Source: Guyanagaster necrorhizus
Lineage: Eukaryota; Basidiomycota; Agaricomycetes; Agaricales; Physalacriaceae
Length of the DNA stretch: 64,000 nt
Reading direction: 5' to 3'
NCBI RefSeq assembly: GCF_019112545.1
Contig: NW_025064882.1
Span: forward strand, 1,874,928-1,938,927
Shown: piece after piece, positions 15,941-42,007 of the stretch
Layout: each line of letters begins with the position of its first letter
Position numbering within the stretch: the first letter of the stretch is position 1
The notes under the pieces: generated by a model
The model's input: the letters and a program-made list of their open reading frames with translations, nothing else
Databases searched by the model: none
Told to the model about the DNA's origin: nothing
Program-made: the position numbers and the translations under genes

Positions 15941-18067
15941 CTATACGCCGAAGCCAGAGCTAGTCTTTCTCAAAGTCAGGGCGCGCCATAATCGCTTTAC
16001 ACCACTGCTACTTGTTGGGCTTGAGATGTTGGTATTCGATTTTGATCGGATTGGCGGCATCGAAATCGGAGGAGGCGCATTATGCCCACCTTGCATTGGT
16101 GGGTGGTCTCCAATACCGAGGAGTAAGAGCGCCTTTGTCCTCGACTTGCGACCTTGTGTGGACGGGGACCGAGTAGGCGAAGTAGGTGGCGAGCTAGACA
16201 TGAAGGAGGAAGATGAACGTAAAGATGGACGTGTGGCGATATCAGAAGATACGACCCATGAGGATGGACGATGATTGACCGGAGAACTTGGAGCAGAGAG
16301 GGAATGTCCAAGGGTGGTCTCATCCGCATCTATGGCAAGGAAGCTGTGGGACTTGCTCTTTACGACTGGACGAGCCGCAAGGAAGGACGGAGGACAAGCT
16401 ATTGGACTGAGATTAGCCGGCATTGCAAGGGGAGTACTTATATAACTGCCTTCTGTGAAGGTGGGCGAAGGGGTCAAAGCACGTAAGCGCGCACCAGTTG
16501 AGGACGCAGGGGAAATCGAGGATCGAGATTGCGAAGTCGGTATTGAAGGAATAGGAATGACAGGGGGAGGCACTGGTTGCTTTCTGATGGTAGGCTTTGG
16601 CGTCGTTGGAGTGGGTGGCGTAGGCGTCTGGCGAACCAACTCAGTGGTCAAACTGGTGCCACTCTCAGGGACAGGGTATTCATGCTGATCCTCGGATGAC
16701 GTGAACGACAGGAATGAGAGTCCTTTCATATGTTTTGATCGTGGCACCGGGGCGACAACATGTTCTAAGACTTGGGATGACGACGCTACAAGACGCTCCA
16801 CAGGCACCGATTCAAGAAGGAAGCCGAGAGGAAGAGGAGGCCCGGCATGAGGCGAATGAGCTGCGGCATCTGCAGCCACCCTTCCGTCTTCGAGAGAGGT
16901 GCGAGGCCTATTCTTCGGCGAACCCCCGGATTGTGACCTGGCTCTCTTCATGATAGTCGACAATCGAGGGAGTGAAGATGTGCGTCGAGGGACTACAGGT
17001 GTAAGCGGTTTCTGAAACGGCATTAGAGATGTGTCAGAAGTGAGAAAAAAATGTAAATACCCACTTCAATGATAGGATCAGTGTGATCTACGTCCGACTT
17101 GGTCGAAGAAGCTGGTGTTGGTAGTGAAGGGCTAGATGAGACGGAATCTGACTCCGATACCGAGACTACGTCTGCCTCCTTGATTGTACCAAATTCATCT
17201 TGGATTTCAGCGATAACGTCACACTCGGAGGTAGAGGTAGAAGTGGACCGTCTACTGCGAAAGCTCCGCAATGAGCGTAAGCTTCGGGATGAACGGATGC
17301 TAGGTGCGGAACGCGTAGAAGTCGGCGGTACCGGAGGGGGTGAAGGAACGGAGACATTCGGGGACTTGGAAAACATAGAAACAATGGACCTGCGTCTTGA
17401 CACCGTTGCCTTCCTGTCTGTGTCTATACCTTGGTTAGCTGAATGAAAGCTGCCGAAAATAAATCGCACCAAAGGTTGCTGATGAAACTTTGGTGTGCCC
17501 ATCTACCGATGCCGAAGCCATGCTTCTTCTTCTCTCTTTCGCCGATACTGGCATTACGACATCAGGTGAAGCCAAACTCAGCCTAGAAAACTTAGGAGTC
17601 GTGAGGTAAGGATTAGCGGTAAGCCACGACTGGTCCGGAAGGGATGTATATGATGTAGACGGCGAGGATGGAGTTGATTGGGATGTATAAACCCTGGGAA
17701 AGTGCAGGACTTGGGCATGAGGTGACAAAGAAATAAAGCTATCGCGAGACTTTGAACGATGTGAAGCATTGTGAGGCGACAGAGGAGGCGAGGGTAACGA
17801 GGATCTGATGGGTATCACAGGGGGGTTCGATATTCGCTTGGGTAACTGCAAAGGAGCGACAGTGAGCGAGGGCAAGTCTGGGGTGGAGGATATTCTATTT
17901 GGCTTGGCCTTTACCGCGTCCAAGGGCGACAATTCGAGCCTACCATCGGGTGAAAGGTTGAACGACGGCCCTGCCAACGGAGAGGAACGTAGAGGACGAC
18001 TAGAAGGAGGCGTCAGACTGTGCCGCCGTGAAGGAGGTGCAAGACAGCCCAGGGAGGTCGCCGCCAT
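15941..18067 (-). CDS. Ser/Pro-rich protein of unknown function
   Basis: Three exons on the minus strand: the first begins at 18067 (MAATSLGCLAPPSRR) and runs to about 17500. The second covers roughly 17430-17065, and the third covers 17011-15941 after a 53-nt intron with donor GTGGGT. The exon 1-2 junction is uncertain; an acceptor just before KATVSRRR keeps the frame. About 620 residues are dominated by Ser, Pro and Arg, with many SP and RxxS sites (for example SRSLRSLRSFRSRRS and ARPVVKSKSHSF) that look like kinase targets. The C-terminus is basic (VKRLWRALTLRKTSSGFGV). There is no transmembrane segment or enzyme motif. It resembles disordered fungal phosphoproteins linked to signalling or polarity, but no function can be assigned. 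Confidence 0.65.
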
Positions 18068-19271
18068 CGTGGACAGGGAGAGGAAGGAATCTCCTAAGCG
18101 CTGCCTCGCTTCAGTGCGTCCAAATATAATGGCAGACAGGGGAGATTCGGCATCACGTACATCACGATCGCCCCGCCAAACACGTTAACAGCTCGGATAA
18201 TGTCGTAAAAGCAAATTGGAACGTTAACGGGTACAAGAAGGCCTTGAACTTGAAACATTCTTTGGCGGACTCGTTCCGTTTCTGATAACAGATCGCATCC
18301 ACTGCATGTCCAGGGGATTTCTAAACCCATGTCATGCAGGGCAGCGGTGTCGCTGGTTCACCAACTGCGAATAGCCCTATGCTTATAGCACAAATTCGTT
18401 TGTTGCAATTGGGAACACTAATTAAACCAACAGTTGGTTAGTTCGTTCCCCCAAAAAAATTACCTGGCCAATGGAATGCCTGGACAATCAATGGGCGCTG
18501 ATAGGCATCTATCGCTGGTCAAATAAAGTATGTGTCATCACATACTAGCAGCGCGACTTGTGTTGCGATCTTTATGCGGTGTTGAAAAATTCAAATCAAC
18601 CAGCGGCACCTTCCGGGACGATGTTGTCTCAACGCTTTCGATTCAAACAAAAGGCACAGCCACAGCCACCACTCAATTCCGCCGACCATTCCTGAGTGTC
18701 GACCTTCTTGGCAGACATCTTTCTTCGAACGCGATGATGCGCTCATCGGATGCAGCTGGTGCAGGAATTTCGTATTCCAAGTGCCGAACATTCTCGCGGT
18801 TTCGAGATGCTCTCCCATGACCACGACGTGTGGGAGGAATGTTGCATCATGCTCATGTTTTTGTTTCCTGGCGCTCCGGTGCCGAAAAAAATTCAAGTTG
18901 CGATGCGATACTATCCTCCACGAACATCGCATATTCTTACAGACTTAATACCACGACTAATCCGGCTTTGTCTTGCGTGGGTTTACAGGAGAGGCAATGT
19001 CATGCTAAGCATAGAGAACCACTAGGCTGACTGCATCGCTTGCTGCGTCGAAGATCACGAATTTGCCTCAAAGTCTTGGCTTGTGAAGTCAATGTCTCTG
19101 TCTCCGCGTCCTATTGGTTTTGCCATGCTTAACTCTTTCCGTCGCTTTGCACTGGGAAGATGGTATATCTCCTTGAGAATTCAGGTCCGCAAAATCTCAC
19201 AATTCAATATCCTGCAGTATAAAGGACTTGCCAACCATCCTACATAAACTATCATTGAATTCACTTCGAAT
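18068..19271. other. intergenic region, laccase-like gene promoter
   Basis: 1.2 kb with no supported gene. Open frames at 18530-19030 show no family features. The 3' end contains the TATA box of the laccase-like gene and an ATTGG (inverted CCAAT) about 160 bp upstream of its ATG. Confidence 0.4.
19218..19224 (+). promoter_or_regulatory. TATA box of laccase-like gene
   Basis: TATAAAG lies 54 bp upstream of the ATG at 19272. An intact core promoter argues against the laccase-like gene being a dead relic. Confidence 0.6.
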
Positions 19272-21850
19272 ATGCTGAAATATCTAGCCATTCTCATCTT
19301 CCTGCGTCTTGCGCCCCTGGTTCGCGCGAGCCAAGTTCATTATAACTTAATCATAGGGAATGCCATTGCTGCTCCTGACGGCTTCGAGCGCAAGCGAGTC
19401 CAGCTATTACAATTCCTTCCTTCGTTTCCTGACGTAGAGTTAGCTCCGTTTTGGCCGGGTTCACATCAGACACATTGCAATTTCCCGGACCCCTTATCAC
19501 GGCACAAAAAGGCAATATTATAACGGTCAGTCGACGCTTTTGCCATGCTTAAGCCTAGTCCTCATCTATCACGTTAGGTCAATGTCAAAAATGAACTTAC
19601 TAATACAAACATGCGTGCAAGTACGAGCATTGTTTGTATCTCTCCCTTGATCATTACCGCAACGCCATTTGACGCGTGGTTGCTTCAGAACTGGAGTGGG
19701 CTTCTTCAACTTGGCCATCCCGAGTTTGATGGTACAAGTTTCGTGACACAGTGCCCAATCGCACCTAATACGTCTTTCACCTATAATGTCGACACCGGAA
19801 ACCAGGCGGGAACCTTTTTATATCGCTCAGGCCTTGGTGTTCAATACGTCGACGGTTTGAGGTGTGCCCTTTTTCTTAGAAATATGGTTGCTGAGACTCA
19901 GAGTCCCCTCAGGGGTCCTTTAATTATATATGGTACGGTCATGCCTATTTTCACCCTGCGGCGGGCTACACTCGCAATATAGATCCCGAAGATCCTCACC
20001 TGAATTTGTATGATGTCGACGACGACTCTACTATCTTCCAGCTCGGCGAATGGTACCACGGATTCTCCACCGACGATTTCAACATTTTTCAGGAAACAGG
20101 AAGCATTCCGTGAGTGGCTCCTGCGGCTTGCTTTAGCTTCCGGCCGATCCTCTTTTTTCTAGGATCTATGACGCAGGACTCATCAATGGAGTTGGTAGAA
20201 CGCAGGGTACATTCGTATCATTTTCATCATATGAGATACTATCTAATGTTACATAGGTGGACCTGAGGTCCCATTTGGGGTGTTCAATGTTGTTTCTGGC
20301 ACTCGGTACCGCCTTAGGCTCATCAGCAACGCTCCTCGTGCCGTGTTTGGATTCATCATTGACCAGCATAACCTTACAGTCATTGAAGAAGACGGTATTT
20401 CTACTGAGCCCGTAGAAGTTGAAGGGCTGGAACTCTACCGTAAGTGATTCAGATTGCATCTATAGGACATCTGTAACTGACTGTTGTACGTAGCCGGTGC
20501 GCCAACCCTTCTTCCTCGTGTAATGCTAGTCAGCGCTTTGATTTTGTTCTTATCAAACGTCCGTAGGTCAACGATACTCGGTCGTATTCACTGCCGATCA
20601 GGTACGGATTCTTGCCTGGACATTAAATCTCATCATTATGCCAACGTAAAACAGGCCGTTGGAAACTACTGGCTTAGGTCTATTCCCCGCGGTGGAACTC
20701 AAACGAAAAACCCCAACTGTGGGTGAGCTCTATCGAGTGAAAAATTTTTGTACTGACGGGACATAGTGAATGCTACTCTTTCCATAGCTATCGTTCGTTA
20801 TGCTGGCGCTCCCTTTGAAGACCCGACAACATCCCAGGCAAACATCACTTTGCTGAAAGAAACACAACTCCACGTGTGTACCATGCTCTTTCAAATTGCG
20901 TTAGGCGATGCTGATGGTTTCATTTCATAGCCTCTGATCCATCCTGGAAGCGTAAGCGACGTGCCTTAGAGCAATGAAAGGTACAGAATCTAATTTCATT
21001 GCAGCCAGGTGGTCCTGACGCGGAGCCGGATGTCAACATTACGTTGAACTTCACCACGGTGCGTAAATCAATTTTGTCTCATGTTTTCCTGGATCACAGA
21101 AGGCATTGTAATAGGGTGCTACAGCGGTATGTGGAAGAGGGTTTGTTTAGCCTTGTCTCATGCAGCATTTAGACGAATCCACTGGATACATGGCATATCA
21201 ACGATATCTCCTACAAGGATCCTCCCATCCCCACGCTTGTCCAGATCATGAATAACAATGACACTTTCCCAGAAGACAGCCATATCATAGTCCTTCCACC
21301 AAACGCTTTAGTGCAATTGGTGATGCCCTTGGGCGAGGATGGTGGCGGTCATCCGATGCACCTTCACGGGGTAGACTTCTTATCTGGCATCGGCCCTAGA
21401 GAATCTAACCCGCTCACTTCACAGAGCACGTTTGATGTCATTCAGCCCGGTGACTCCGGTGGGGTAATGAACTTTATCAACCCATCTAGGAGAGACGTTA
21501 TCCCTGTTATTGGAGATGTAACAATCATTAGGTTCCGGACTCCTGCTGTTGGTGCGTGTGATCTTTATCAGATATACGATTTTGACCAAATCTTGTTCTG
21601 CCGGTGCGGGTGAAGGCATTTTCCACTTACACTGGTGAGCTGGCCCTCTTCAACTTGGCTTTAATATGCCTCGAAATTTATGACTGGTGTGTGCCTTCGA
21701 TTTCTTAGCCATATTATCTGGCATGCCGAGGCTGGTCTCCAAATGACACTTATCTCTGGTCCCAATGCTATTCGAGAAAGCGTCAGGCCAAGTCCTGAAT
21801 GGAATGACTTGTGCCTCAAGTACAACAGTCTAGCAGCGGAATTCCAGTGA
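19272..21850 (+). CDS. laccase-family protein lacking N-terminal copper ligands
   Basis: Secreted multicopper-oxidase family protein with three cupredoxin domains. Eighteen exons join to exactly 549 codons (548 residues) with no stop or frameshift. A signal peptide ([19 protein letters not shown]) precedes [17 protein letters not shown]. Family segments are in order: [49 protein letters not shown] and [17 protein letters not shown]. Laccase motif L1 (HWHG) reads NWSG at residues 89-92, and L2 (WYHSHL) reads LYRSGL at about 132-137. These changes remove all four N-terminal type-2/type-3 histidines. L3 (HPMHLHG) and L4 (HLHCHIIWH) keep their ligands, including the type-1 His-Cys-His set. Laccase oxygen reduction should be impossible, but a mononuclear blue-copper site could remain. 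One intron (19394-19437) needs a GC donor, and a 3-nt exon (20494-20496) best fits the conserved GQRY segment. Confidence 0.9.
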
Positions 21851-22306: not shown

Positions 22307-24138
22307 ATGAGCGGTTGTGGGTAGAGTCTATATTTTCAGTATTCGGTTTCTAACTATATCTCTTCGACAGTTCGGTTTTTGAATCTTGTCCGTCCTTTCC
22401 TGCCCATCCTTCCAGAGGTCTCCTCGCCCGATCGCAAAGTATGTAGCCGGACGTGTTGTGGAAGTATGCAACTCATACTGTTTCCAGGTTCCATTCAACC
22501 AAAAAGTATTATGGACGGCTGTTAGTCTTTTAATTTTCTTGGTGTGCTCCCAAGTACCCCTCTATGGAATCATGTCGTCGGACTCATCGGACCCTCTGTA
22601 CTGGTTGCGAACCATCCTTGCCTCGAACCGTGGAACCTTAATGGAATTGGGCATCAGTCCTATCGTCACATCTGGAATGATCATGCAACTACTTGCCGGT
22701 GCGAACTTGATTGAGGTCGATTTCAGCTTGAAGGAGGATCGTGCTTTGTTTTCGGGCGCGCAGAAACGTGAGCGATCTAGTCCTTCTTCATCACTCCTGG
22801 CTGGAAGCGTGTTCATTTCTTTACTTAAATTTCTGTAGTTTTCGCTCTCATCATCTCGTTCGGCCAAGCGACCGTGCATGTTCTCACAGGTCTATACGGT
22901 CAACCAAAGGACCTCGGCGCAGGCGTCTGTCTTCTCCTCATGATCCAATTAGTTGTCGCTGCCCTCATTGTCATTCTCCTCGATGAGCTCTTACAAAAAG
23001 GCTACGGTCTTGGATCCGGTATCTCGCTCTTCATTGCCACCAACATCTGTGAATCTATCGTTTGGAAAGCCTTCTCGCCTACTACTGTCAACACGGGACG
23101 TGGCCCAGAATTTGAAGGTGCTATTGTCGCGCTGTTTCACCTTTTGTTCACCTGGAATGATAAGGGTCGTGCGCTGCGTGAGGCTTTCTGGAGAGATCGC
23201 CTCCCCAATGTTATGAACCTCATCGCCACCATTATTGTCTTCGCCGCTGTCATTTATCTTCAAGGTTTCAGGATTGAAATTCCTGTCAAGAGCAACCGAT
23301 TCCGCGGTCAACGTGGCTCCTATCCCGTTAAATTATTTTACACTTCAAACATGCCTATCATGTTGGAGTCCGCGTTGACGTCAAATGTCTTCATCATCTC
23401 GCAGATGCTCGCCTCTAGGTTCCCTAGTAACTTCTTCGTAAAGCTTTTGGGTGTTTGGGAGGTTTGTAGTTCATAATATACCATGACCTCATTTTCAATA
23501 CTGATTGGCGCGTCTTAGCCCCTGGAAAACTCACCTCAACTTGCAGCCACCTCCGGCATCGCGTATTACATGTCCCCGCCTCATGACTTGAAAGAGGCTA
23601 TCCTCGATCCTATCCATACCGCCGTCTACATCACCTTCATGCTTTCTGCCTGTGCGCTGTTCTCCAAGACATGGATAGAAGTATCCGGCTCCGGGCCCCG
23701 AGATGTCGCCAAACAGCTCAAGGATCAACAAATGGTTAGATAGTCTTTCTCTAAATTCCCATTTCTCATAACTCATGCCGTATCTTCTTAGGTTATGGCT
23801 GGTCACCGAGAGGGCTCTATGTACAAGGAGCTGAAACGTGTCATCCCCACCGCCGCTGCATTCGGTGGCGCTATTCTTGGTCTTCTATCTGTTGCTGCCG
23901 ATTTAATGGGTGCGATTGGAAGTGGAACTGGTATTCTGATGGCCGTCACCATTATCTATAGCTGTGAGCCGTTGTTTTCGCAATCGTAGCTATTCATTTG
24001 CTAATAATGCACATGCTTTTTTAGACTGGGAGACAGGTATGAGGGTAAGCAGTTGGTTGTTTCGGGTTTGTTCGAAATCTAACTTACTTTTAGGAATCCG
24101 GAGGCCCGGAAATGGCTGCTCTCGGAGATCTGCTGTAA
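22307..24138 (+). CDS. SEC61: Sec61 alpha, protein translocon channel
   Basis: Core subunit of the ER protein-conducting channel. Eight exons (22307-22313, 22371-22438, 22488-22767, 22839-23461, 23519-23734, 23792-23963, 24025-24044, 24094-24138) sum to 1431 nt, giving 476 residues, the usual length for the family. The first exon has only 7 nt (ATG AGC G). Typical Sec61/SecY features are visible: [11 protein letters not shown] at the N-terminus, [34 protein letters not shown], the helix with [40 protein letters not shown] and the C-terminal [20 protein letters not shown]. About ten transmembrane helices are expected. This is a housekeeping gene with no sign of anomaly. Its 3' end converges on the desaturase gene, leaving about 520 bp between stops. 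Confidence 0.97.
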
Positions 24139-34596: not shown

Positions 34597-35184
34597 ATTG
34601 AAGCTGAGGACTAAGAAAAGGTGGAATGTTGTTGCCAGCAGTAATTTTAAAGCAAGAATTGCAGACGGAAGAATGAGGCTGAGGGATGGATTCCTGTATT
34701 CTTAAACTGGCGCCGCCATTGGGTCCATATGAAAAGCGGATAAGAAAGGACCCCCAAAAGTACACAAGTTGGAGAAAAACGACTAGGCCGAGATGCCGAT
34801 GTTGTTCTGGCGTTCGGTTGAGACGAAAGAAGGCCGGAGGTCGACGACGGATGGACGGAGGAAGACTATCAAAAAGGATTCTGGTCGTGATTGGAAACGA
34901 ACTGCGGGTATAGAGGCCACGATATGAAAGTTGACGTTGAACAAGGACAGCTATGAGACGAACATCGCAGACGGACAAGTTCACAGCTGAGGGGGAATAT
35001 CTTGGATATTTGAAAGCGTCGTACTTCGGATACCGCGTCGACGCACATAATTGAACAACTGAACGTTACGGCTTGAAAGCAGGTGACCGTGAGCACAAGA
35101 TTCTTTATATATACTCATTACGTAAATGACACATCCAAGACGTTGACGTCGACCTCGACGTTCCACTACACTGGCGTGGTCGCT
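34597..35184. promoter_or_regulatory. shared upstream region of two divergent transporter genes
   Basis: 588 bp separate the ATGs of the MCT-type gene (minus) and the SUT-type gene (plus). A TATATATA run at 35106-35113 is placed about 75 bp upstream of the plus-strand ATG. No specific operator is identified. Confidence 0.45.
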
Positions 35185-37736
35185 ATGACCGGTGGCAGCT
35201 TCACCACATTTGACAGAAATGAAGCCAGTGCTGGTAGACTGACCGGACACGCCTACATTCGCGGTCCTAAGCACCTTCACTTACCCATCCTTACCATCGG
35301 CTTCCTAGGCATTCAGCTTTTCTGGTCTGTAGAACAATCCTACGGGTCTCCGTATCTGCTTTCGCTTGGTCTCTCAAAGTCCGCCATGGCTATGGTCTTC
35401 GTAGCGGGACCTCTGTCCGGCTTGGTCGTGCAGCCACTGATTGGTGTGCTCGCCGACGGGTGCACATCGAGGTGGGGACGACGACGACCATATATGATGG
35501 GAGGTGTGCTCATATGCATTTCTGCGATGCTTTTGTTGGGATGGACGAGACAGGTTGGGGCCTGGTTCACGTCAAAGGTGAGTTCGCCGCGTCTTCGGGA
35601 CACGCCATGCTCATTTATCGCGGTCAGCAATCTTTGGTAGTGTGGCTAGGCATCCTTTCCATATATTTTATCGATTTCAGTATCAATGCAGGTATTATTC
35701 TATTTGCCTTGTATGACTTGGTTTTATCATCATAGTGTCACACAGTCATGGCCGTGGATCGCGCCCTTCTCGTTGATACCTTGCCAGCCTCGCAGCAACC
35801 AGCCGCAAACGCATGGGCCGCGGCGATGTTTAGTCTAGGAAGCGTCATCGGCTTTTTCTTGTGAGCCTATCTTACCTATACCTGTCGGCAAATTAATATA
35901 TTCCTCATTTAGCGGTAACCTAGACCTCCCCTCTCTTCTGCCGTTTCTTGGACATGCAGAACTCGAGGTTTTCAGTATCATTGTCAGCTTCCTTCTACTT
36001 GCCGGGCACGTTTCAATGGCCATTTTCGTCAAGGAAAAAGTCCTTCTCACAATAGCACCGGGTCCTAGAGGGTAACTACATCCACCGTATGCAATTGTCT
36101 TATAATATTGATGTCCATTTCAGCCCGCTCATCCGAACATTCATCCAACAATTCAAGACGATATTTACCAGTATTCGGACGCTGCCTAGAGTAATTAAAC
36201 AGATCGTTAGTCAAAATATTTCTTCCCTACCATTCACACTAATGGAGCATCGCCGTTACATAGTGCATAATACAATTCTTGTGATTGTTTATGGTCTTTT
36301 TATTGCCGTCGCGCTGACGTTTCCGTCCCTAGTACCTGGATTTCTTGGTTCCCGTTGCTCTTCTACACCACGCTCTACATCGGAGACCTTCACAAACGGG
36401 AATATTATACGTCTCTTCTCCTTACGGAATCCGTCGGCCCTTCAACTTTGGAGTTAATCAATTCTACAGGTATTTCGAGGCAGGACGACATAGATGCGTT
36501 GGAGGCGGAATCTACGCGTCTAGGGTCTCGGGCCCTTTTCTTCTCATCAATATTGGCTCTCTTGTCGAATGTTCTTCTCCCTTTTTTTATCGTCAAACCA
36601 CGTCATAAACCAGCGCGTCATGTTAATGCCCGATACTATAATACTCGGGCGCAGAATGAAACGGATGGGTATACACAAAGTCCTACTGCGGCAGGGAGGT
36701 TGTGGGCGTCATGGAGAATTCCCGACGTGATCAGGGTGCATCTGGCGAGCCTGTGGGCCGTGAGTCATGTGGTGTTTGCTGGATGCATGTTGGGCACTTT
36801 GTGAGCTTCTACATTCATGTTTCAGACGTGGTTGATAACCATGGCGTCCAGCTTCACAACCTCAGTCAAAGGGGCAACCTTTCTGATAACCGTAACCGGA
36901 TTCTCGTGGGCCATCGTTCAGTGGGCTCCATTTGCATTGGTTCGTTATGTGGAGCCAGACAGCTATGTCATGTTCTCCCACTTACATCGTGTAGTTAGGT
37001 GAAGCCATATTGACGGAGCCAACGTCTGGTGCCGGTGACGCGGGTGCTATAATGCTCACGGACACGAGGTCTTCCAATGCAGGGGTGGAAGAGGTCGTGT
37101 TCGAGGATCCAGAACATGATTCCGACTCTGATATCGGATCGGACCAGAAAGAGACATCAAGATCAAGGCTGATGGGCAATCCTGATGCTAGTGTCAGTAG
37201 GGTCAACATCTCTGGGAATCGCGTTGAATTGTATGAAGAGGAGGAAGAGGAGGAAGAGGAGGGTGAAGATGCTGTGTTAGTCGGTAGGCGGAGATCGGAT
37301 CTTGAAATTAGCGAAACAGGAGATGGGGTAACTACCGAAGACTTGAGCGCAAAAGCGGGCATCATCCTGGTAAGTCCTGTATGGTTTGTCTGCCCGGGAA
37401 TCTGATGTAAAATTTCAGGGAATACATAACATATTTGTTGTGGTACCGCAGTTCCTTGTAACGGGCATCTCATCCATTATTTTCGCTGTCTTCGACAAAG
37501 ATACCAGGGTAGCCCATGACGGAGACGCCAGCTCCGCAAAAAACGGAGCCAAGGCCGCAAGCATCATGAATGCAGCTGCAGGGTCAAATTCGGTGGTGTA
37601 TGTGTTCCGGTGAGTATCCTCTGGAAATCATAGTGCCGTATCAGTAAGCGAACTATCTATCAGGATCGGCGGCATAGCAGCATTGATCGCCTTTGTGTTG
37701 AGTTGGCGACTCGCAAAGGAACTCAGACACCGATGA
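35185..37736 (+). CDS. SUT-type alpha-glucoside/sucrose:H+ symporter
   Basis: Glycoside-pentoside-hexuronide type MFS protein related to fission-yeast Sut1 and plant SUTs. Eleven exons (35185-35577, 35628-35691, 35746-35860, 35913-36071, 36124-36205, 36264-36280, 36333-36800, 36852-36939, 36995-37369, 37419-37609, 37664-37736) sum to 2025 nt, giving 674 residues. Landmarks: QLFWSVEQSYGSPYLLSLGL, GPLSGLVVQPLIGVLAD then SRWGRRRPYMMGG, DFSINAVMAVDRALLVDTLP, FFTWISWFPLLFYTTLYIGD, GFSWAIVQWAPFAL and GIHNIFVVVPQFLV. Exon 6 is only 17 nt. A long cytoplasmic loop between late helices is very acidic (a run of Glu near 37240) with Ser-rich flanks, a likely regulatory insert. Disaccharide uptake is inferred from family. 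The 3' end converges on the URC4 gene with 137 bp between stops. Confidence 0.92.
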
Positions 37737-40915: not shown

Positions 40916-42007
40916 TCATTGGTCGAAATCTCTTGAATGCAATCGTCCATGCCAGAATGCATGGTTCCACCAGTCACCCTCGAGCCTGACGGGCTGAATC
41001 TTGCGTCCAGCGGCGTTGACATTTATTGACTTCTGTAAGTACCACAGCTCCGCGATGTTGACGCTTCGAAGATACTTGGCCACTCTGTCATAATTCAACC
41101 CAACAGCGTGGGGTCCGTGACTATCGTCTGACAATGTGAACCGACCGCCATGTTTGACGATGATCTAGGTAGAGAACCGGACCAAAACCGATATGGAAGC
41201 AATTAAAACATACCCCTCGACGCGCTAAAATAGACATGTGTGTACACACCTCAACGACATCTTCCGCGGGGTAAGCCGTATCCCATTTTTTCCTGAGAGC
41301 GGCCGCGTTAACCTCAAACAAGGCGCCATATCCGACGGCATACGCAATATTCCTTTCCGCGAGCTTCCGGGCCGCGGGATAATTGTCCAGACGCAACGAA
41401 GGGGTATAGAGACGGCATAGATCAAAATGTCCCACAATCTCGGGCTTCACCTGCTGAAGAATGTCGTACTGGGCCTCGAAATAACAACAAAGGAAATTCT
41501 CCTGTGTGTCTTTCTCGGTTTCACTTGCTAAACTGTGTAAAGCCTTTTGGAAGGTGTCGAAATCGAAATCTATGGGCAGGCCGTTGACATGATGTATGGA
41601 GCCGACGATGTATTCGACACGCTCCCCATGTGTTCGAAGACACCGTTGGAGGTTGTCAATATCCAGCGAAGTGATGTATTCCGTCTCTAATCCGACTAGC
41701 AGATTGATCTTGTGAGTATATTTCAACTTCAATCTGTGCGCTTCATCAAGAAACGCGTTAAATTGGATTTCAAGATCAGGCAAAGACATTCCTTCCTAAA
41801 ATAAGTAGTGAGATATTTGATCGAAGCCTGTACCTGCCACTTAGTACTTGCCTCTTCAGGATAGAGATCTTGGATTCGGTATCTGGGAACATGCTCAGTA
41901 AGGCCGTACACGTCGAAGCCTTGATGTATAGCTTCAAGAACGACATCCTCAAGGTTCCCGGACGCATGCCTGCAGAATTGGCCTGAATGGGAGTGGTGAC
42001 TGTGCAT
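40916..42007 (-). CDS. histidinol-phosphatase (PHP family)
   Basis: Histidine biosynthesis enzyme of the PHP type (yeast HIS2 class), which hydrolyses L-histidinol phosphate. Exons 42007-41834, 41795-41250 and 41164-40916 sum to 969 nt, 322 residues. The first intron is only 38 nt. PHP metal motifs are present: MHSHHSHSG at the N-terminus, VYGLTEHVPRY, LLVGLETEYI, YIVGSIHHVNGLPIDFD, VGHFDLCRL and TLSDDSHGPHAVG. The sequence between (FLCCYFEAQYDILQQVKPEI) and the C-terminal region (IAELWYLQKS) match the fungal enzymes in length and order. All expected catalytic histidines and acidic residues seem intact. This is a housekeeping gene. Confidence 0.94.

Follow-up and report, generated by a model that had tools for sequence, protein, structure and literature searches.

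The window, i.e. the whole 64-kb stretch of Guyanagaster necrorhizus DNA analyzed here (contig NW_025064882.1), carries a laccase-like gene on the plus strand at positions 19272–21850 and no other laccase match within its 64 kb. The gene encodes the NCBI protein "laccase [Guyanagaster necrorhizus]" (P0001, 528 aa) letter for letter. Our gene model, built by a spliced aligner from protein alignment alone with P0001 as template, consists of 19 exons and 18 introns and gives 528 codons with no stop and no frameshift; the coding part spans 19272–21847, and the stop codon ends at 21850. A preliminary description of the locus had correctly placed the start at 19272, the stop at 21850, and, as a sequence match, a TATAAA box at 19218. 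Its stop-free frame also holds, but its counts of 18 exons and 549 codons do not, and its exon around motif L3 contains a 54-nt intron that is open in frame and had been read through. The gene is organized as follows.

19218..19223, + strand: TATAAA box, 54 nt upstream of the ATG (sequence match only)
19272..19393, + strand: exon 1, start codon and probable signal peptide, ends at GC donor GCGAGT
19394..19443, + strand: intron 1, GC-AG (spliced alignment and paralog comparison)
19444..19525, + strand: exon 2 (spliced alignment to P0001)
19578..19631, + strand: exon 3 (spliced alignment to P0001)
19689..19861, + strand: exon 4, NWSG for HWHG (19689-19700) and LYRSGL for WYHSHL (19818-19835)
19913..19932, + strand: exon 5, 20 nt (spliced alignment to P0001)
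19983..20109, + strand: exon 6, LGEWYH, with Glu where laccases have the substrate-pocket Asp
20163..20206, + strand: exon 7 (spliced alignment to P0001)
20257..20439, + strand: exon 8 (spliced alignment to P0001)
20494..20496, + strand: exon 9, 3-nt microexon, gives PG in LYPGQRY, in agreement with NCBI model P0001
20567..20601, + strand: exon 10 (spliced alignment to P0001)
20655..20718, + strand: exon 11 (spliced alignment to P0001)
20767..20873, + strand: exon 12 (spliced alignment to P0001)
20931..20951, + strand: exon 13 (spliced alignment to P0001)
21005..21058, + strand: exon 14 (spliced alignment to P0001; ends elsewhere with template P0004)
21115..21126, + strand: exon 15, 12 nt (spliced alignment to P0001; starts elsewhere with template P0004)
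21173..21370, + strand: exon 16, ends with HPMHLHG (L3; T1, T2, and T3 histidines kept)
21371..21424, + strand: intron 16, 54 nt, open in frame (spliced alignment and paralog comparison)
21425..21551, + strand: exon 17 (spliced alignment to P0001)
21552..21615, + strand: intron 17, position and phase shared with both NMCO paralogs (paralog comparison)
21616..21634, + strand: exon 18, 19 nt, IFHLH and the first two bases of the T1 Cys codon
21709..21850, + strand: exon 19, rest of L4 (HIIWH, with the T1 His) through the stop codon

Exon 1 probably encodes a signal peptide, as judged by eye and from a low-confidence N-terminal helix in the AlphaFold model. The window also holds several other gene parts. 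A SecY/Sec61-type translocon part (PF00344) is found just downstream at 22829–23476 (+), followed by a sugar-transporter (MFS_2) part at 35077–35640 (+) and a PHP-domain part at 41121–41795 (−). Upstream are three minus-strand ORFs (15941 to 18184), two of which were scanned and gave no Pfam match.

We compared the introns with those of 16 paralog models from the same genome (12 canonical, 2 NMCO-type, and 2 Fet3-type). More than one cut is possible at intron 1. No GT donor of exon 1 keeps the frame, whereas the GC donor at 19394 does, and intron 1 lies at the position and phase of an intron in 7 of the 12 canonical models, all of them with GT; the other 5 have no intron there. When the mis-spliced Armillaria borealis model P0003 served as template, the aligner returned 16 introns and placed one frameshift within intron 1, and with the Mycena floridula protein P0004 it placed two introns differently. 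We rejected a frameshift at intron 1 because the GC donor keeps the frame and yields P0001. Residues 41–60 of P0003 appear to contain intron 1 in frame, which a donor other than GT in that species too would account for; the GC donor may be shared among armillarioids. Of the 14 laccase/NMCO-type models, 12 match the intron after L3 in position and phase, and the remaining two have one four alignment columns away; neither Fet3-type model has an intron at that position.

The predicted protein assumes the three-cupredoxin-domain fold of the MCO superfamily (PF07732, PF00394, and PF07731), as indicated by Pfam, the AlphaFold model, and its closest PDB structure. The Pfam domains come from a scan of a provisional 548-aa translation and from the precomputed listing for P0001. 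The AlphaFold model, based on a 33-row alignment, has a mean pLDDT of 91.2 and a pTM of 0.90, and its best PDB match is an ancestral Agaricales laccase (PDB code 9gly; TM 0.89 by query and 0.95 by target, 44% identity).

The copper-binding motifs are altered in the N-terminal half. L1 reads NWSG and L2 reads LYRSGL, so that none of the four N-terminal type-2/type-3 histidines remains. Both L3 (HPMHLHG, 21350–21370) and L4 (HLHCHIIWH, across exons 18 and 19) keep every copper ligand, including the T1 His/Cys/His. The preliminary description had reported the same replacements and the same retained ligands, and the sequence positions and a 167-row alignment bear it out on both. A proton-donor acid of L4 is also gone (HCHIDWH to HCHIIWH); it belongs to a pair of aspartates that donate protons close to the trinuclear site (PMC10741624, partial text). 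Whereas a laccase (EC 1.10.3.2) has ten His and one Cys as ligands in L1–L4 and the acid of HCHI[D/E]WH, the window protein has 4 of the 10 histidines replaced and an Ile at the acid position. Laccases sensu stricto (PDB codes 9gly and 1gyc) share with it the fold, several intron sites, and the T1, L3, and L4 ligands, but they possess the full trinuclear site and the L4 acid, whereas the window protein lacks half of those ligands and the acid.

To place these changes, we read 19 sites in 167 rows, which comprise 151 distinct proteins and the 16 paralog models. The proteins are the matches listed (120 of 1,120 hits and 120 of 1,620 hits), and the sample is biased, being drawn by similarity to the window gene. 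For the paralogs, 4 of 20 loci were dropped, and one more match on C22 was left out. Among the matches listed are six window-type clusters, all with Arg and Gly in L2: P0001 (Guyanagaster), P0002 (Armillaria luteobubalina), P0003 (A. borealis), P0004 (Mycena floridula), P0005 (Hymenopellis radicata), and P0006 (Mucidula mucida). The relatives with NWSG/YRSG-type substitutions that the preliminary description had called for are thus found; they comprise Physalacriaceae and, besides these, Mycena floridula. Because five further clusters carry the L2 Arg/Gly and no L1 His, the altered motifs are more than chance.

In all six rows, the four N-terminal ligand positions (both of L1 and both of L2) are non-His, with an L1 pattern of N/F-W/F-S and an L2 of the LYRSGL type, the T1 residues His-427 and His-487 are kept, and the axial residue is Leu. 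Several of the relatives' database models are visibly mis-spliced (P0002, P0003, P0005, and P0006 skip or retain pieces). The T1 Cys is kept in all four rows whose model contains that exon, which is missing from the P0002 and P0006 models; the letters WHSPLA of P0006 would correspond to this exon read in another frame. At the L4 acid position, all five rows with data have Ile (P0006 has a gap), and the other proton-donor aspartate, Asp-77, is retained in five of the six. In P0004, a T3 His of L3 is lost as well (HPIHIQG), which makes it the fifth trinuclear-site His to be replaced.

That the gene is a lone oddity is not supported, as our best tree places the window protein beside a large, named group of T2/T3-deficient proteins, the NMCOs ("novel MCO"), known from Agaricales and Russulales. 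According to the accessible portions of Ruiz-Duenas et al. (PMC8480192) and of a review (PMC10741624), NMCOs lack three of the ten copper-binding histidines, which are replaced by basic or acidic residues. The window protein shares the retained T1 ligands but lacks four histidines, replaced by N, S, R, and G. By alignment, 80 of the 167 rows are NMCO-type, with [D/N/S/G]-x-D in L1 and the L3 and L4 copper ligands intact. The first L2 His is kept in 78 of these 80 (the others have one Arg and one gap), the second is mostly Gln or Glu (WYHSQ/E), and the L4 acid is replaced by F, Y, or M. The Arg belongs to P0078 from Marasmius tenuissimus, whose L2 ligand positions read Arg and then His, so that the usual NMCO pattern is reversed. 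All 80 rows carry Asp at the second ligand position of L1, perhaps a sign of a different metal site and not of a missing one.

Like the window clade, NMCOs are laccase-derived, lack trinuclear-site histidines of L1 and L2, keep T1, and have a hydrophobic residue for the L4 acid. They differ from it in having lost three histidines instead of four and in the Asp-77 position, which is Glu in 78 of 80 NMCO rows and Asp in 5 of 6 window-clade rows.

Similar proteins have been described under the name of laccase. Partial texts report that Lelcc8/9/13/14 of Lentinula edodes, like the window protein, miss several T2/T3 histidines and keep the T1 histidines, and that they have signal peptides and expression data (Yan et al. 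2019, PMC6947313), and that AaLac10 and AaLac12 of Amylostereum lack both L1 histidines (PMC7700495). Together with the NMCO reports, T1-keeping, T2/T3-deficient laccase relatives are therefore already in print. In our alignment, Lentinula laccase 8 (P0024) and Amylostereum laccases 10 and 12 (P0063 and P0062) are NMCO-type; Lelcc8/9/13/14 are probably of this type too, judging by the aligned database "Laccase 8" and assuming the same numbering. Our literature search, whose scope was mainly outside subscription papers and supplements, gave no description of an NWSG/LYRSGL-type protein, and the portions available of PMC3129051, PMC10470841, PMC11205865, PMC7827401, and PMC12929423 likewise contain none. 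The genomes of PMC8480192 (partial text) include Hymenopellis and Oudemansiella mucida, and window-type sequences may therefore be within its NMCO count.

An IQ-TREE tree was calculated from 61 of the 167 rows with the 19 scored site columns excluded. The six window-type rows form one clade (support 100/100), 26 NMCO rows form another (100/100), and the two are joined at 99/95; a quick tree supports the joint branch at 95. In this tree, the window clade falls outside the clade of 26 NMCO rows, as its sister, though the published NMCO set may count such sequences. The four-loss clade looks like a new subclade next to the described, uncharacterized NMCO group. By parsimony, the loss of each of the two L1 histidines and of the L4 acid takes one change, and that of each L2 His takes two. 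Most likely, the T2/T3 losses began in an ancestor common to the window clade and the NMCOs. Two separate losses remain compatible with the AU test, which did not reject trees that hold the window clade (p 0.337) or the NMCOs (p 0.135) with the 19 nearest canonical rows instead.

The G. necrorhizus genome itself contains two intact NMCO-type paralog models, L015 (C49:205500-210000) and L016 (C7:863000-867500), with the motifs STSLDLDG, WYHSQL, HPIHMHG, and HCHIFWH. Both share with the window gene an intron at site 940 (phase 1) that is absent from all 12 canonical paralogs, which favors a single origin of the window clade and the NMCOs within the limits of one genome. Two other candidate marks of a common origin were rejected. 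Canonical paralogs also carry the intron after L3, and the second disulfide lacks its first Cys in 24 of 79 canonical rows and its second Cys in 24 of 79.

In known laccases, both halves of the trinuclear cluster are needed for oxygen reduction. With four of the eight ligands of the trinuclear site missing, as well as the L4 acid, oxygen reduction should be abolished in the window protein, and on the grounds of known MCO chemistry we agree with the preliminary description that it should not be a laccase. We consider it likely that the gene encodes a probably secreted laccase derivative of three cupredoxin domains that would not reduce oxygen, would hold one T1 copper, and would serve outside the cell as a carrier or binder. 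As honey mushroom and other Agaricales relatives share the change, this looks like a conserved non-oxidase branch, with the protein probably a T1-only derivative of laccase. The trinuclear cluster would be unable to assemble, and a single copper would be bound at the T1 site. This site could accept an electron from a reductant and hand it to another partner, making the protein a one-electron (blue-copper) carrier; it might otherwise bind phenolics or copper. The carrier role is the mechanism that we favor, though with low confidence. Copper binding, a decoy function, adhesion, and signaling, which the preliminary description had proposed, are candidate roles.

A tentative alternative, which deserves consideration though we think it improbable, is a metal-free structural or binding protein. 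It would retain the fold in order to bind phenolics, cell-wall polymer, or another protein, which might be a true laccase, and packing would account for the persistence of the T1 residues. This is consistent with the intact laccase fold of the model and with the further trinuclear-site ligand lost in Mycena floridula. However, the T1 His/Cys/His is retained in every row with data, whereas the trinuclear-site ligands are not. The insect protein MCORP, in which no oxidase activity was detected and which is yet essential, and plant SKU5 resemble the window protein in combining an MCO fold with many missing copper ligands, but they show the opposite pattern: they retain two T2 histidines but lost T1 and T3 residues (in MCORP, T1 and most of the T3 ligands), whereas the window protein keeps T1 (PMC4203857, partial text). 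SKU5 is a doubtful parallel in any case, its activity being called unknown in the same partial text and a later title tying it to redox reactions (PMC10315306).

The site could also be modified instead of empty, the remaining trinuclear-site histidines holding another metal or Arg-132 replacing a copper ion electrostatically. Such an arrangement would be compatible with the T1-only, non-oxidase protein that we prefer, and it might account for the invariant Arg and Gly of L2 in the clade and for the invariant Asp at the second L1 position of the NMCOs. The Ser and Gly found at two of the window protein's positions are poor ligands, however, and we regard a modified metal site as unlikely. Slightly further still along this scale, and speculative, is the proposal that, in this clade of probably secreted proteins, a laccase has become an electron carrier with a single copper. 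The invariant Arg at the place of a type-3 copper would switch off the oxygen end, whereas the blue-copper end would be kept together with its His-Cys-His wire and would pass electrons to a partner.

The window protein is 87.8% and 87.1% identical to the two Armillaria rows, compared with 94.6% for the NMCO pair L015 and A. gallica P0109, and therefore changes faster. This conservation below that of one NMCO pair, the GC donor of intron 1, and the pieces skipped or retained in P0002, P0003, P0005, and P0006 could point to an early-stage pseudogene evolving neutrally or nearly so. We simulated neutral decay by random mutation of the window CDS to the observed protein divergences (300 runs, counting stops only, without indels). 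At the A. luteobubalina divergence, the runs acquired a mean of 2.5 stops and 26 of 300 had none; at half this divergence, corresponding to one lineage, the mean was 1.4, and 26% of runs were likewise without a stop. None of 300 runs was free of stops at the Mycena floridula divergence (mean 7.5). As the relatives' database proteins cannot show stops, this test covers the window's own lineage only, and weakly. Against decay stand the intact frame of the window gene, free of stops and frameshifts, and the retention of the same two L2 residues and T1 ligands across species down to 63% identity. A decayed laccase copy of the same genome, L024 (C17:158000-162500), looks different, with two stops and one frameshift. 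A pseudogene thus appears very unlikely. Three other loci (L014, L018, and L022) gave poor or partial laccase matches only. Between L015 and L016, pN is 0.13 and pS is 0.71, with synonymous sites near saturation.

It is hardly credible that the gene is a normal laccase whose HWHG and HSH lie on an alternative exon, or that the assembly is in error, as the altered motifs lie inside one continuous exon (19689–19861), other species carry the same changes, and no evidence for either was found.

Having retained the T1 residues but shed half of the trinuclear site, the reverse of MCORP, the clade provides a natural test of whether the two ends of an MCO can work separately. It also bears on annotation, since laccase counts from genomes serve to judge fungal attack on lignin. 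In our sample, which is biased toward the window gene, 86 of 167 rows lack at least two trinuclear-site histidines, and many of these are named laccase in databases. Laccase 6 of Cyathus bulleri (P0019) shows a single L1 ligand change (HWNG) in an otherwise canonical row.
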